From the NCBI GenBank assembly GCA_015059785.1, contig SUZS01000001.1:62001-126000 (forward strand): 64,000 nucleotides of DNA, given 5' to 3'. Below the pieces are notes generated by a model. The model saw only the letters and a list, made by a program, of their open reading frames with translations, was not told the DNA's origin and searched no databases. How positions within the stretch are numbered: position 1 is the first letter of the stretch; each line of letters starts with the position of its first letter. Source of the stretch: Rikenellaceae bacterium (GTDB taxonomy: Bacteria > Bacteroidota > Bacteroidia > Bacteroidales > Rikenellaceae). A program made the translations under genes and the position numbers. This document shows positions 140 to 30,831 of this stretch, one piece after another.

Positions 140-393
140 ATAGTAAATCTGATTTTAGGTGAGGATTTACAAGGCTCAATGAAAAATGCCTGCGCTAAAT
201 TTCATTTTAAGTAGGAAGTTACAACGCTCGGCAAAAAATCCCACCGATGAATTGCACAAAGTCAAAAAATCTGATTTTAGGTGAGGATTTACCACGCTCA
301 ATGAAAAATGCCTGCGCAGGATAGTACCAAGTAGTACAGCCCAGCAGGCATTTATCATTAGCGGCAGTAAATACCGCATAAAATCAGATTTTA
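140..393. repeat. nested-hairpin element A, copy 1, with an extra duplicated left arm
   Basis: aaatctgattttaggtgaggattta at ~145 and ~267; right arm taaataccgcataaaatcagatttta ends at the mdh stop codon; core ggatagtaccaagtagtacagcc. Confidence 0.8.
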
Positions 394-2867: not shown

Positions 2868-3572
2868 ATGAGAAAAATTACAGCACTTGGAGACTCGATT
2901 ATGCGAGGTGTTATACTTGACAAGAGCAGCAGCGCATCGAAGCCAAGATATACAAATCTTAGTGACAACTTTGCTTCAATCTGCGCCACAGAGTTGGGAG
3001 TAGATATCAAAAACTTTGGTCGGTTTGGCAACACCACACTTCACGCGCTAAAGAGTTGGGAGAGATACAAAACCGATATTGCAGACTCCGACTATATTGT
3101 TATTGAGTTTGGAGGAAACGACTGCGACCACAACTGGTTAGAGATAGCAAACAACCCCGCGGCTGAACATCACCCTATAGTAGACCTACCAAAATATGTA
3201 GAGCTATTGCGCACAATGATAATAAACATTAAGGAGCTAAACAGCCAGCCGCTATTACTCTCGCTGCCGCCGATTATTGCAGATAGCTACTTCAACGCCT
3301 TTACCAAAAATATGAACACCGAGCAGAAAAACAATGTCCTGCTCTGGTTAAACGGCTGCTTGGAGAACATAACACAGTGGCACGAGATGTACAACCTTGA
3401 GCTATTTAAGCTATCCACAGAGTTGGATGTGCCAATTATAGACATCACATCTCCGTTTTTAGTGAAGCGCAACTACAGAAACCTCTTTTGTGACGATGGC
3501 ATACATCCAAACAAAAAAGGGCATAGTCTGATTGCCGACACAATCTGCCACTACGCCCATAGATTTATTTAA
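2868..3572 (+). CDS. SGNH/GDSL hydrolase
   Basis: Start at internal ATG 2868 (MRKITALGDSIMRG); GDS block, EFGGNDCDHNW, DGIHPNKKGH. Confidence 0.88.
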   Translation: MRKITALGDSIMRGVILDKSSSASKPRYTNLSDNFASICATELGVDIKNFGRFGNTTLHALKSWERYKTDIADSDYIVIEFGGNDCDHNWLEIANNPAAEHHPIVDLPKYVELLRTMIINIKELNSQPLLLSLPPIIADSYFNAFTKNMNTEQKNNVLLWLNGCLENITQWHEMYNLELFKLSTELDVPIIDITSPFLVKRNYRNLFCDDGIHPNKKGHSLIADTICHYAHRFI

Positions 3573-4309: not shown

Positions 4310-4555
4310 AGCTTTTGGCTATTAGCCGTTGGCTGTTGGCTTTTTTTGTTAATAGGGAGTTTAAGGAATTTAGGGAGATTAAAGATAATTCTCTAAATTC
4401 ACTAACTTCACTAAATTCTCTATTCTGCGTTAGCCAGCTAACGCCGCGATTAAGCCGAGAGCAGAGACTGCTTGCAGACTTTGCCGAGGCGGAGCGGGGT
4501 CGGGTTGCCGAAGGCAAGCCAATGGCTAATGGCTAATGGCTAATGGCTAATTTAT
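4310..4555 (+). repeat. composite intergenic repeat; same modules as 62965-63180 in reverse order and orientation
   Basis: ggctattagccgttggc - 9-bp-periodic hairpin - ctgcgttagcc..ctaacgc - ttgccgaggcggagcggggtcgggttgccgaaggcaagcc - (ggctaat)n. Confidence 0.8.
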
Positions 4556-15182: not shown

Positions 15183-16541
15183 ATGGCAAAGCGTATAGTA
15201 GTCCTCGGTGGAGGAATTAGTGGTTATGGCAGTGCAATACTTGCAAAAAAAGAGGGTCTGGATGTCTTTCTTACTGATGCAGGGACAATCTCCCCTCTCT
15301 ATCGCTCGCGCCTTGAGCAGTGGGGCGTAGAGTACGAAGAGGGTGGACACACCTTGGAGAAGATTCTCAATGCTACCGAGGTTATCAAGTCTCCAGGCAT
15401 ACCTGATAAAGCACCTATTGTTGTGGCTATTCGCGAAAAGGGTATACCCGTAATCTCAGAGATGGAGTTTACTCACCGCTATATCGGTGGTGCAAAGACT
15501 ATCTGCATCACTGGTAGCAACGGTAAGACCACGACCACCTCGCTAATCTACAAAATTCTCTCTGACGCAGGATATAATGTGGCATTAGGTGGCAATATCG
15601 GCGAGAGCTTTGCCTATAGCGTGGCTACAGGGGCTTACGACTGGTATGTGCTTGAGCTGAGCAGCTTCCAGCTTGACGGTATGTTTAAGTTCAGAGCAAA
15701 TATCGCCGTGCTGATGAACATCACCCCCGACCACCTTGACCGCTACAACTACTGCTTCCAGAACTATGTAGATAGCAAGATGCGCATCGTACAGAACCAG
15801 AAGAGCAACGACTGTTTTATCTACTCTGCCGACGATAGTACCATTATGGCGGAGCTGACAAAACACCCTTTGCGCTCGCGCGAACTGCCATTTATGGCAA
15901 AGAGTGCCGTTGCCAGTGGTGCAGGCGACGCATTTCTCTCTAACGACATTTTTACCGCTCGCGTAGGCGATGTTGCGGTAGATATTAATACCGAGAAGAT
16001 GCAGATTAAGGGTCTACATAACGCCTACGACGCCATGGCAGCAGCCTTGGCGGCCCTCGCTGCGGGTGTTGCGCCAGAGCAGGTGGCAGAGTCTATCTAC
16101 GACTTCTCGCCCGTTGAGCACCGCCTTGAGCCTGTGGCAGAGATTGACGGCGTGCAGTATATCAACGACTCTAAGGCTACAAATGTGGACTCTGTCTGGT
16201 ATGCCCTTGAGAGTATGACCCGCCCAGTGGTATGGATTGCTGGCGGAACAGATAAGGGAAACGACTATACCCCACTCCTTGAGTTTGCCCGCACAAAGGT
16301 GCATACGCTTATCTGTATGGGTCTTGATAACACAAAGCTTGAGCGCGACTTTGCAGGTGTTGTTCCGACAATAGTCTCAACAGATAGCCTTGACAGCGCA
16401 ATGCGTGCGGCGGTTGCTGCGGCACGAAGTGGCGATGTGGTGCTGCTCTCCCCTGCCTGCGCAAGCTTCGACCTATTTAAGAACTACTGCCAGCGCGGCG
16501 AGCTGTTTAAGGAGTGGGTCAATACAAACCTCAAAAAGTAG
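15183..16541 (+). CDS. murD: UDP-N-acetylmuramoylalanine--D-glutamate ligase
   Basis: 452 aa; ITGSNGKTTTTSL, NITPDHLDRY, NDSKATNVDSVWYAL. Confidence 0.95.
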   Translation: MAKRIVVLGGGISGYGSAILAKKEGLDVFLTDAGTISPLYRSRLEQWGVEYEEGGHTLEKILNATEVIKSPGIPDKAPIVVAIREKGIPVISEMEFTHRYIGGAKTICITGSNGKTTTTSLIYKILSDAGYNVALGGNIGESFAYSVATGAYDWYVLELSSFQLDGMFKFRANIAVLMNITPDHLDRYNYCFQNYVDSKMRIVQNQKSNDCFIYSADDSTIMAELTKHPLRSRELPFMAKSAVASGAGDAFLSNDIFTARVGDVAVDINTEKMQIKGLHNAYDAMAAALAALAAGVAPEQVAESIYDFSPVEHRLEPVAEIDGVQYINDSKATNVDSVWYALESMTRPVVWIAGGTDKGNDYTPLLEFARTKVHTLICMGLDNTKLERDFAGVVPTIVSTDSLDSAMRAAVAAARSGDVVLLSPACASFDLFKNYCQRGELFKEWVNTNLKK

Positions 16542-16546
16542 AAACG

Positions 16547-17818
16547 ATGGAAGACAACAGAGCGACAGTTCCCTCAATACTCTCAAAGGTTACTTTTTTC
16601 AACGGAGACAAGGTGTTGATGGTTATCGTGCCTATACTCTTTGTACTCTCAGCACTTGTTGTCTACTCATCAGTAGCCAAGATGGGCTATGCCCATATGG
16701 GAACGGAGACCAACGCCATTTTCACTAAGCATTTAGTAGTTATTATCTTAGCAGCCACCACGCTTATGGGTTGCTACTTTATGGGCGCAAAGTTCCTCTA
16801 CAAGACCGCGCCATATGTATATGGTATCTGCTGGTTGCTTACCCTTGGCGTATATTTCTTTGGCTCTACAAATGGAGGCGCAGCTCGCTGGTACGACTTC
16901 GGCTTCTCTGTTCAGCCGTCAGAGCTTCTTAAAGTTGCAACAATACTTCTCCTTGCCCGCACCCTTGATGATGCACAACCAACAATCGGTCACCAGCGCC
17001 TACTGCCCTCATTCAACCCGTGGAAGTGGACAAAGAAGGGGCGTCAGAAACAACTTGACATACTCTGGAACGGCACATGCAAGATTGTTATGCCCGTGCT
17101 ATCATCTGTTGCCGTGATTATCAAGGCGCACAACTCTACAGCCCTGCTTGTCTTCGGCATCGGCTTTATTATGATATTTATCGGTCGCGCGCTGAAGATG
17201 GAGCTTACAAAGGTCTTTCTGCTTGTCGCCGCCGCGGGTGCTATATACTTTGCCGCAGGTGCTGGTCGCGCACATACAGCCACAAGCCGTATTACAAACT
17301 TTGTCAAGGAGTGGACCACCCCTGCCGACACCACCGCCACACGAACCCTTACAGATGCTGACCACGCAATGATTGCCATATATGACGGAGGTCTATTTGG
17401 CGTGGGCGCAGGCCAATCTGTTATGCGCGCAAAGATTACCCACCCAGAGAGCGATTACATCTTCTCATTCTTTGTTGAGGAGTACGGAATTATCATGGGT
17501 ATGATACTCATCATCCTCTATGCCTGGATTTTCGCCCGCGCTATCGCTATCTTTAAGTCCAGCCGCTGGTTCTTCGGAGGTATCCTTGCGCTGGGGCTGG
17601 CGCTGATGATAACTATTCAGGCACTGCTCCACTTTATGGTCTCCACGCACCTGTTTATGGAGACCGGCCAAAACCTACCACTTATCTCCCACGGAGGCAC
17701 ATCAATGGTCTGCACCGCTGCTGCTCTGGGTATCATCCTGAGCATCAGCCGCCAAGCCAATAACCGCACCCTTGAGCCACCAGTCGGCATCGCCGCCATG
17801 AGCGGAGAGGAGGAGTAG
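16547..17818 (+). CDS. ftsW: FtsW/RodA/SpoVE-family glycosyltransferase
   Basis: Start at ATG 16547; multi-TM, GLFGVGAGQSVMRAKITHPESDYIFSFFVEEYG, LPLISHGGTSM. Confidence 0.92.
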   Translation: MEDNRATVPSILSKVTFFNGDKVLMVIVPILFVLSALVVYSSVAKMGYAHMGTETNAIFTKHLVVIILAATTLMGCYFMGAKFLYKTAPYVYGICWLLTLGVYFFGSTNGGAARWYDFGFSVQPSELLKVATILLLARTLDDAQPTIGHQRLLPSFNPWKWTKKGRQKQLDILWNGTCKIVMPVLSSVAVIIKAHNSTALLVFGIGFIMIFIGRALKMELTKVFLLVAAAGAIYFAAGAGRAHTATSRITNFVKEWTTPADTTATRTLTDADHAMIAIYDGGLFGVGAGQSVMRAKITHPESDYIFSFFVEEYGIIMGMILIILYAWIFARAIAIFKSSRWFFGGILALGLALMITIQALLHFMVSTHLFMETGQNLPLISHGGTSMVCTAAALGIILSISRQANNRTLEPPVGIAAMSGEEE

Positions 17819-17827
17819 TTTTAGATG

Positions 17828-18697
17828 GCACGACCGCTCAAAGTAACGCCATTTTGTTATTTTGAGTGAGATTTTGCAAGGCTTGCGAAGGCGAGAAAAG
17901 CGTAGCATACTAAAGGTATGTGAGCATTTACGAGACGAGCATAACGCGGCATGACCGCTCAAGATAGCACCATTTTGTTATTTTGAGTGTGATTTTGCAA
18001 GGCTTGCGAAGGCGAGAAAAGCGCAACATACTACTCGTATGTGAGCATTTTTAAGACGAGTGCAATGCAGCACAACCGCTCAAAGTAGCACCATTTTGTT
18101 ATTTTGAGTGAGATTTTGCAAGGCTTGCGAAGGCGAGAATAGCGTAGCATACTAAAGGTATGTGAACATTTTTGAGACGAGTGCAATGTGGCACAACCGC
18201 TCAAAGTAACACCATTTTGTTATTTTGAGTGAGATTTTGCAAGGCTTGCGAAGGCGAGAAAAGCGGAGCATACTAAGCGTATGTGAGCATTTTTGAGACG
18301 AGTGCAATGCAGCACAACCGCTCAAGGTAGCACCATTTTGTTATTTTGAGTGAGATTTTGCAAGGCTTGCGAAGGCGAGAAAAGCGCAGCATACTAAAAT
18401 GTATGTGAGCATTTGTGAGACGAGTGCAATGCAGCACGACCGCTCAAAGTAACGCCATTTTGTTATTTTGAGTGAGATTTTGCAAGGCTTGCGAAGGCGA
18501 GAAAAGCGCAGCATACTAAAATGTATGTGAGCACTTCCGAGACGAGTGCAATGCGGCACGACCGCTCAAAGTAACGCCATTTTGTTATTTTGAGTGAGAT
18601 TTTGCAAGGCTTGCGAAGGCGAGAAAAGCGGAGCATACTAAGCGTATGTGAGCATTTTCGAGACGAGTATAACGCGGCAAAAGCCGCTCAAAATAAC
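17828..18697. repeat. tandem array of seven ~121-122-bp units, plus a partial unit at the 5' end
   Basis: ggcttgcgaaggcgag recurs at 17880, 18001, 18122, 18243, 18364, 18486, 18608; each unit has CATAC-loop-GTATG hairpin and a GTTATTTTGAGTG/CGCTCAAAGTAAC stem. Confidence 0.95.
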
Positions 18698-18703
18698 AAA
18701 AAT

Positions 18704-19117
18704 ATGGAGGTTAGATTAGACAAATACTTATGGGCAGTCCGCATCTTCAAGACAAGAAGTGATGCTGCGGATGCGATAAGAAATAACCGTGTTACGGTCA
18801 ATGGTAGCTATGCCAAGCCGTCGCGCGAGGCAAAGGTGGGAGATAAGATAGATGTGAAGAGGGGTATGATAACCTACTCTTACCTTGTCACCGAGCTTGT
18901 GGCTAACCGTCAGCCGGCGAAAAATGTTCCGCAGTTCTGCCAGAATATTACCCCACAGACCGAGCTTGACAAGCTCAATGTTCCCCGCGAGACAATCTTT
19001 GTCTTCCGCGAGCGTGGCACCGGCCGCCCAACGAAGAAGGAGCGCCGCGAGATTGACGCCGTCATGGACGAGATGTTTGTTTACGACGAGGATTTTGACC
19101 TTGATGATGAAGATTAA
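18704..19117 (+). CDS. S4-domain RNA-binding protein (Hsp15/HslR-like)
   Basis: MEVRLDKYLWAVRIFKTRSDAADAIRNNRVTVNGSYAKPSREAKVGD; ATG at 18704 preferred over the ORF start inside the repeat. Confidence 0.88.
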   Translation: MEVRLDKYLWAVRIFKTRSDAADAIRNNRVTVNGSYAKPSREAKVGDKIDVKRGMITYSYLVTELVANRQPAKNVPQFCQNITPQTELDKLNVPRETIFVFRERGTGRPTKKERREIDAVMDEMFVYDEDFDLDDED

Positions 19118-19216: not shown

Positions 19217-19295
19217 TAGCTTTACTTTCGGAATAGGAGGAATAGGATTTGAAGATCAAGCGATAAGCGTTCGCATCGCTTCAATAGAAAAGCAA

Positions 19296-19425
19296 TTTTT
19301 GTTGTCAAAATGCGGTAGATGCAACGCTCGGCGACAACTGGCTGTCGCAGGATAGTACTAAAACGTACAGCCAAGCAGCCATTTGGTGCTAGCGGCAGCA
19401 GATGCCACATTTTCACAACAAAAAA
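19296..19425. repeat. nested-hairpin element A, copy 2
   Basis: Outer arms TTTTTGTTGTCAAAATG/CATTTTCACAACAAAAA; core GGATAGTACTAAAACGTACAGCC. Confidence 0.8.
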
Positions 19426-19445
19426 GAGAGACTCAGCAGTCTCTC
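19420..19445 (-). terminator. intrinsic terminator, probably the original terminator of tRNA-Leu
   Basis: Minus strand GAGAGACT-GCTG-AGTCTCTC followed by TTTTTT; 8 bp from attL. Confidence 0.75.
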
Positions 19446-19520: not shown

Positions 19521-19654
19521 GAACAAATTGAATATATTGTAAAGCGTTGATATATAGCGTTTTGCGCAATATAATACAAAGAGCAATATAATCTGGACAA
19601 ATAACACTCGTAAACACTTATAAACAAATAAGTGGGCAAAAAGTGGGCAAAAGT

Positions 19655-19685
19655 TTTGTTTTTTGCCCACTTTATTATACCTTTG
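19655..19685 (+). promoter_or_regulatory. Bacteroidetes-type promoter for integrase (TTTG-N19-TACCTTTG)
   Basis: TTTG 19655-19658, 19-nt spacer, TACCTTTG 19678-19685; ATG 19707. Confidence 0.75.
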
Positions 19686-19706
19686 TGGTACATTATTAGG
19701 GAATAT

Positions 19707-21041
19707 ATGGCAACTATCTACTTAACTCTATCGGCAAAAGCCGACAAAGCCACCGGTTTGCACCGTGTAATGGTGCGATTTAAGCACGGTAAAATAGACC
19801 AAAGAGCGAAATCTGCAATCTTTGTACTATCCGAGTATTGGGACAGTGAAGCGCAATGTCTTACTATTCCGAGATTTCGTTTGATGAGTAACGAGCAGCG
19901 AGAGCTGTGCGAGCGATTAGCTGAAGATAACAGCAAGCTGCAAAAATTAAAGGAGGTTATAACACAATCTTTCATTGATGTTGGAGCGGGCAAACTCGCT
20001 GTATCTGGCAATTGGCTAACCTCAACAATAGACCAACACTCTTTCCCAGAACGATTTATCCAGAAAGCGGAGAACGCTGATTTTTTCACTCTCTTTGAGT
20101 ATTATATCAACAATCGCAAATTCTCCGACTGGAGAAAGCGTGCATTTTGGGTCGTATATCGCACACTCAAGCGATACTCACTATACTCTAAACAGACATT
20201 GGAGTTGGAGAGCATAAATGCCGATATATTGCGCCAATATGAGCAATACTTACGCGAGGAACACATCCTATACGACAAACTGCACAAAATATTTGAACAA
20301 GTGCCTAACTCTCGCAAACCAGAGCCACGCGGGCAGAATACTATTAACGGCATATTCACAAAATTGCGCACTTTCTTTTTGTGGGCGATTGATAATGAAT
20401 ACACAACAAATAATCCTTTTCGCAAGTATCAAGTTGAGGAGTGTGTATATGGCACTCCGTACTATATCACTATTGAGGAGCGTAATACCCTATACAAAAC
20501 CGATTTAAGTAAACACCCACAGTTGGCTATCCAGAGAGATATATTTGTGTTCCAGTGCTTAATCGGTTGCCGTGTGAGTGATTTATACGCACTTACAAAG
20601 GCTAATATTATAGACGGAGCAGTTGAGTACATCCCGCGCAAAACAAAGGAGGGCAGACCTATTACCGTGCGTGTTCCGTTAAGTGCAACTGCAAAGGAGA
20701 TATTAGCAAGATATGCAGACTATCAAGGAGAGAGCCTTTTCCCTTTTATATCTCAACAACAGTACAATATCGCCATTAAGCGTATGTTTGTTGAGGCGGG
20801 CATTACTCGCACTGTTACGGTAATAAACCCAACGACACGCGAGGAGGAGCAGCGACCAATTTGCGATATTGCCTCCTCTCATCTTGCCCGCAGAGCATTT
20901 ATTGGCAATCTATATAAGCAAGTCAAAGACCCTAATTTAGTAGGCAAGTTAAGCGGACACCAGGAGGGCTCAAGGGCTTTTGTTCGCTATAGAGATATTG
21001 ACGAGGATATGCGCAAGGAGTTAGTTGCTTTATTGGAATAG
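19707..21041 (+). CDS. tyrosine recombinase / site-specific integrase
   Basis: Phage-integrase SAM-like N-term; GCRVSDLYALTK, HLARRAFIGNLYKQ, LSGHQEGSRAFVRYRDID. Confidence 0.93.
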   Translation: MATIYLTLSAKADKATGLHRVMVRFKHGKIDQRAKSAIFVLSEYWDSEAQCLTIPRFRLMSNEQRELCERLAEDNSKLQKLKEVITQSFIDVGAGKLAVSGNWLTSTIDQHSFPERFIQKAENADFFTLFEYYINNRKFSDWRKRAFWVVYRTLKRYSLYSKQTLELESINADILRQYEQYLREEHILYDKLHKIFEQVPNSRKPEPRGQNTINGIFTKLRTFFLWAIDNEYTTNNPFRKYQVEECVYGTPYYITIEERNTLYKTDLSKHPQLAIQRDIFVFQCLIGCRVSDLYALTKANIIDGAVEYIPRKTKEGRPITVRVPLSATAKEILARYADYQGESLFPFISQQQYNIAIKRMFVEAGITRTVTVINPTTREEEQRPICDIASSHLARRAFIGNLYKQVKDPNLVGKLSGHQEGSRAFVRYRDIDEDMRKELVALLE

Positions 21042-30709: not shown

Positions 30710-30714
30710 ATTTT

Positions 30715-30831
30715 GTTGTTAAAAGGTAGCATTTGCTGCGTTGCACTTCAATAACCGAGCTGCTCACATACGCTTTAGTATGCTGCGCGCTCGGTTTCTT
30801 GTGCGCCTGGCAACTACTACCTTTTAACAAC
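30715..30831 (-). repeat. single copy of the array-type hairpin element, opposite orientation
   Basis: Outer stem GTTGTTAAAAGGTAG/CTACCTTTTAACAAC; reverse complement has GCAGCATACTAAAGCGTATGTGAGCA, as in the 17.8-18.7-kb units. Confidence 0.8.

Follow-up and report, generated by a model that had tools for sequence, protein, structure and literature searches.

The tandem array lies between ftsW and an S4-domain protein gene in a 64,000-nucleotide stretch of a Rikenellaceae genome (hereafter, the window). TRF placed it at 17827-18698 with a period of 121, 7.2 copies and 90% matches. The unit-start motif GTTATTTTGAG occurs at 17856, 17977, 18098, 18219, 18340, 18462 and 18584, which gives spacings of 121, 121, 121, 121, 122 and 122. 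As the source genome is a MAG, the exact unit count of seven is subject to the usual short-read caveat. Two covariance models were used: R1 was built from 53 diverse copies of the element, and R2 solely from nine enterobacterial ERICs. The features and their model matches were as follows.

16514..17818, + strand: ftsW (PF01098, E 4.5e-52); the array begins directly 3' of its stop codon
17828..17847, + strand: partial 3' arm of a truncated leading unit (..CCGCTCAAAGTAAC); a similar leading remnant is present in sister genomes G157 and G164
17856..17968, + strand: unit 1, ERIC-like hairpin (R1 E 3e-23)
17977..18089, + strand: unit 2, ERIC-like hairpin (R1 match)
18098..18210, + strand: unit 3, ERIC-like hairpin (R1 match)
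18219..18331, + strand: unit 4, ERIC-like hairpin (R1 match)
18340..18453, + strand: unit 5, ERIC-like hairpin (R1 match; also R2, E 0.1 over the window)
18462..18575, + strand: unit 6, ERIC-like hairpin (R1 match)
18580..18701, + strand: unit 7, ERIC-like hairpin (start motif at 18584; R1 E 8e-29)
18704..19117, + strand: S4-domain protein gene (PF01479)
30714..30831, - strand: dispersed copy, type II (R1 E 8e-21; top R2 match in the window, E 2.7e-4)

Each array unit spans GTTATTTTGAG to CTCAA(A/G)(A/G)TA(A/G)C, 113-114 nt, and the array is a head-to-tail series of hairpins of about 113-121 nt with ~8 nt between neighbours. The units folded far beyond chance (z -4.7). The original prediction had described seven units of near-constant period between ftsW and an S4 gene, and TRF, the motif starts and the domain matches agree with it. 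The CATAC/GTATG hairpin with variable loops and the outer stem of each unit, which it had also proposed, are both found in the supported structure; among the seven units, the outer stem TTTTGTTATTTTGAG/CTCAAAATAACAAAA is perfect in unit 7 only. However, GCAAGGCTTGC does not form the separate hairpin that had been proposed, since AAGGC is the internal-loop side facing AACGC, and the partner of TGC is G(C/T)(A/G), upstream of TAAC. Nine paired columns differ among the array units yet stay paired through wobble on the + strand, and at least two break a pair. Variable columns made up 14 of 78 paired and 10 of 36 unpaired columns (p 0.32), so the expected enrichment of substitutions in loops was not seen.

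A DNA search found 31 relatives of the array unit in this genome, and relatives in 16 of the 24 other genomes of the genus that were searched. R1 gave 46 matches in this genome and was positive in 50 of 120 genomes of the family, where per-genome counts in many are at-least figures and other members of the same genus have none. Across the order, 78 of 295 Bacteroidales genomes were positive, and these represent 61 of the 185 genera. The sibling genomes (Alistipes sp. or Rikenellaceae bacterium) are mostly of ruminant hindgut origin. These results show that the array unit is a dispersed structured element, not a local satellite, and that its proliferation is patchy and lineage-specific. Rfam gave no match for the element at the gathering score and E-value thresholds, and a sub-threshold rli31 match (locus L036, 271-382) was a different hairpin. 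No copies of the Bacteroidales core were found in phages or viral contigs.

Several other features were observed beside the copies. A weak R1 match at window 271-388 belongs to a second hairpin class, also present at 19286-19430, with the apex GGATAGTAC-N5-GTACAGCC. Its outer stem is sometimes common with type II; in sister species it lies directly 3' of stop codons, and it often encloses a terminator-like A-tract/T-tract stem. A tyrosine recombinase gene (PF13102, PF00589; window 19632-21041), directly 3' of the class III hairpin, is probably an integrated element. Runs of a 7-mer (AATGGCT / TAGCCAT) lie beside several copies (window 4521-4551; flanks of L195 and L213). One copy (L021/L196, G000:C6:66145-66259) is a chimera whose left and right arms come from different subfamilies, and its outer stem no longer pairs.

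We then consider the structure across the family. In the Bacteroidales alignment, 26 of 31 stem pairs are changed on both sides. Cells were paired in 91.7%, compared with 67.7% after shuffling and at most 47.5% after sliding, and doubly changed cells numbered 407 against 129. Pairing and double changes thus exceeded the controls, which supports the view that the units are recognised structured hairpins rather than a random satellite. The prediction of constant stems with variable loops was reversed at this scale: the variation falls in the stems, and the internal loops and apical core stay constant (AAGGC opposite AACGC, (G/C)CG(S)AG opposite TGAG), as is the total length. The + strand is favoured, since G.T pairs exceed A.C pairs on it (36 vs 16, p 0.008), its fold is the more stable one in 90% of 87 non-redundant copies, and UG, UA and CG all occur at pair 45:106. 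G.U accounts for 3.5% of stem pairs, which is low for RNA under slow drift and counts against an RNA reading. Three causes would fit the near-strict Watson-Crick stems: very strong selection for pairing, pairing at the DNA level, or repair between the arms.

Knowledge of ERIC dates from 1990-91, and ERIC primers are widely used for typing. Its synonyms are IRU, RU-1 and MITEEc1, with MITEPlu5 in Photorhabdus. Previous reports described ERIC, at about 127 bp and 30 to 711 copies, only from Enterobacteriaceae and Vibrionaceae (PMC10969869). It measures 127 bp in E. coli and 123 bp in Photorhabdus (PMC2759123, PMC6267812), with TA termini and TA duplications (PMC2759123), and IS630-like ends and an IS630-type mobiliser were proposed for Photorhabdus ERIC (PMC6267812). 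It has been reported in Yersinia that ERIC destabilises upstream transcripts, depending on its orientation, via an RNase E site (PMC2229807, PMC10969869).

In this study, we found that a BLAST search with the Bacteroidales consensus matched a Halomonas chromid copy and a S. aureus 16S-23S spacer. R1 aligned over positions 1-115 with 11 of 12 ERIC or ERIC-like loci from E. coli, Klebsiella, Rahnella, Lelliottia, Proteus, Pseudomonas and Serratia (E 7e-10 to 0.025 over 19 kb, no filters); the one missed was the Serratia ERIC locus. In the reverse direction, R2 gave only two matches in the window, each on a genuine copy of the element (E 2.7e-4 and 0.1), and found most other tested Bacteroidales loci at E < 1 (best 1.3e-9); its scores for the array units were weak, the best being E 0.1. 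Two copies from other Bacteroidales families carry the exact ERIC apex CAG-GAG-TTTAC..GTAAA-TGA-CTG. Because the individual cross-scores are modest, the case for ERIC rests on the number, position and full length of the cross-matches, which in both directions argue for homology. Since a TA duplication was not observed, we classed the Bacteroidales element as ERIC-like rather than canonical ERIC. The part of the literature that was covered holds no paper naming such an element in Bacteroidales, and an earlier report of ERIC in Bacteroidota may exist. ERIC-like elements on Halomonas and Pseudomonas replicons (L372 2963-3076, L375 1524-1633, L386 604-717) scored between enteric ERIC and the Bacteroidales copies. 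The S. aureus spacer (L373, about 2961-3074) has a hairpin with the same core GCGGAGTTTAC..GTAAATGAGC ~50 nt upstream of 23S rRNA (R1 E 7e-9), by homology or convergence.

The position of the copies relative to genes was strongly biased. Among 148 distinct sites, the gene ending beside the element was antisense to the + (folding) strand in 93 cases and sense in 8 (p 1e-22). Element-gene distances cluster such that the outer stem terminates at the stop codon. The host genes are core genes, which from their translations alone we take to be GAPDH, frr, tig, clpX, secA, mdh and tpiA. What follows the GAPDH stop depends on the species: a type I copy, a type II copy, an unrelated class III hairpin or a terminator alone. 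This site differs even between the near sisters G000 (this genome) and G157. Replication polarity was rejected as the cause of the orientation because the left neighbours show almost no bias (76 to 61). Host coding sequence was also rejected as the source of the outer stem, since pairing ends at the stop codon.

We consider it probable that the array arose by tandem amplification of an ERIC-like miniature mobile element whose + strand hairpin is read by its structure, as RNA. The element would be a non-coding imperfect palindrome of about 115-135 bp, the + strand of which forms a single long hairpin. Its two internal loops (AAGGC opposite AACGC; G(S)AG opposite TGA) would be fixed, and its stem sequences could be exchanged freely. 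Copies 3' of genes would survive mainly when their + strand is antisense, because in sense orientation processing of the folded transcript would reduce the mRNA level, as reported for ERIC in Yersinia. The antisense bias is what selection against such ERIC-like mRNA destabilisation would be expected to leave.

A different selected form, a single-stranded DNA hairpin serving as substrate of a putative structure-reading recombinase, with stem identity free and only pairing and loops mattering, is somewhat unlikely. Integron attC sites are structure-read substrates of the integron integrase, and their folding bottom strand is antisense to the gene, as is the folding strand here. The almost strictly Watson-Crick stems (994 Watson-Crick pairs, 36 G.T and 16 A.C) and the recent copies at new sites also agree with this form, as do stems that differ entirely between copies, which make a transposase reading duplex ends unlikely. 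However, neither an integron integrase (TIGR02249) above cut-off nor a Y1 transposase was found in 16 genus members, changes within the array preserve pairing by wobble, and a conserved centre with a variable outer stem is the reverse of attC. Identity with attC itself was rejected because the host genes are core genes, not cassettes.

Filled and empty site pairs allow a direct test of mobility. Sites of a recent subfamily of this genome were compared with those of its sisters. G157 and G164 carry a plain intrinsic terminator at the same gene. In the filled sites (L192, L193, L199, L191 and L195 vs L316, L308, L312, L326 and L324), the terminator hairpin is replaced by the element and a new terminator GTGGGTGACTA..TAGTCACCCAC, and the flanking T-tract side is kept; this replacement is read from a handful of junctions. 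The filled/empty polarity is backed by two outgroups at three loci (L192, L193, L199). In L205, the terminator loop is inverted relative to other copies. TA target duplication was not seen in five or six filled/empty pairs, all of one recent subfamily.

Two further explanations concern how the copies moved. Reverse transcription of a transcript 3' end, hairpin plus terminator, would account for the T-tract right junctions, and recent copies do consist of element plus terminator ending at the terminator T-tract. Such a retro-element is nevertheless improbable, as no reverse transcriptase (RVT_1) was found in the copy-bearing genomes G000, G001, G004, G005, G008 and G010 (72-96% complete). REPIN/BIME-like repeats mobilised by a RAYT (Y1) transposase would likewise be dispersed, multi-copy intergenic palindromes 3' of genes, but they are very improbable and already contradicted: the Y1 transposase (PF01797) is in 0 of 16 same-genus genomes, copy-rich ones included, and the unit, at about 115 nt and with the loops of ERIC, does not match a REP of 20-40 bp. 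As the genomes are incomplete MAGs, the absence of any single mover weighs little, and the shared pattern weighs more.

The proposed comparison of unit number among relatives gave 7 in this genome, 2 in the sister species G157, 1 in G164 and 0 in G003; G129 also has none. The apical stem in G164, CATAG/CTATG, is a compensated change. In the array-less G003, the S4 start codon lies 6 nt past the ftsW stop. The window array is an exception among the copies, as it lies in the sense direction within the ftsW-S4 operon. Most simply, it grew there recently, in sense orientation, probably by unequal recombination or slippage. Other short tandem arrays occur in related genomes (L041, L036, L047, L107, L108, L060); the regular ones have a period of about 121-124, and the six units of L107 are unevenly spaced. 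The suggested link to the adjacent S4 protein was not supported, as copies adjoin unrelated core genes and relatives without the array retain the S4 gene. That the tandem, near-constant period marks a functionless local minisatellite or an RNA bound by the S4 protein is scarcely credible, being already contradicted by dispersed homologues beside unrelated genes, covariation and cross-phylum homology.

If the array is an amplified ERIC-like element, this rare sense case would insert as many as seven nuclease-sensitive hairpins into the ftsW-S4 interval and uncouple the expression of the two genes. The operon position and sense orientation, unlike those of most copies, count against this explanation. 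More broadly, and only tentatively, ERIC may form the enteric branch of an ancient superfamily of mobile hairpins that spans phyla and whose members are recognised by their structure. In Bacteroidales, the hairpin with its terminator could then take the place of core-gene terminators while its folding strand stays antisense, and an enzyme not yet described would move it as an interchangeable module for gene 3' ends. With stem divergence saturated in this second phylum, covariation is strong and establishes both the two loops and the preferred strand, and the Bacteroidales copies show where insertion or survival is constrained, namely at the stop codon and antisense.

The Bacteroidales element shares with ERIC a single long imperfect palindrome (113-114 nt plus an outer extension here, about 120-130 bp in ERIC), the AAGGC / AACGC internal loop at similar spacing, the apical GAG-5 bp-TGA core and the dependence on orientation (PMC2229807). 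Both are intergenic, dispersed, multi-copy and strong single hairpins with lineage-specific numbers. Unlike ERIC of Enterobacteriaceae and Vibrionaceae (PMC10969869), the element resides in Bacteroidota; the apex of most copies is the variant (G/C)CG(S)AG../..TGAG(C/G), stem sequences are almost wholly different from copy to copy, the outer stem ends at the stop codon in fixed antisense orientation, no TA duplication was seen and a tandem array is present. What is new here is the phylum, the stop-codon outer stems with an antisense folding strand, and the recent copies replacing native terminators. Like integron attC, the hairpin lies 3' of a stop codon with its folding strand antisense and its stem sequence free, whereas no integrase was found and its centre is conserved and its ends variable. 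It resembles REP/REPIN as intergenic palindromes near gene 3' ends and differs from REPIN with RAYT in size, in core and in that no Y1 transposase was found. The BrickBuilt MITE of Porphyromonas gingivalis, a minisatellite within a MITE, is likewise a case of tandem repeats tied to a mobile element in a Bacteroidales host (PMC4596501). However, BrickBuilt has 23-nt internal repeats and IS-like terminal repeats, whereas here the whole hairpin repeats.
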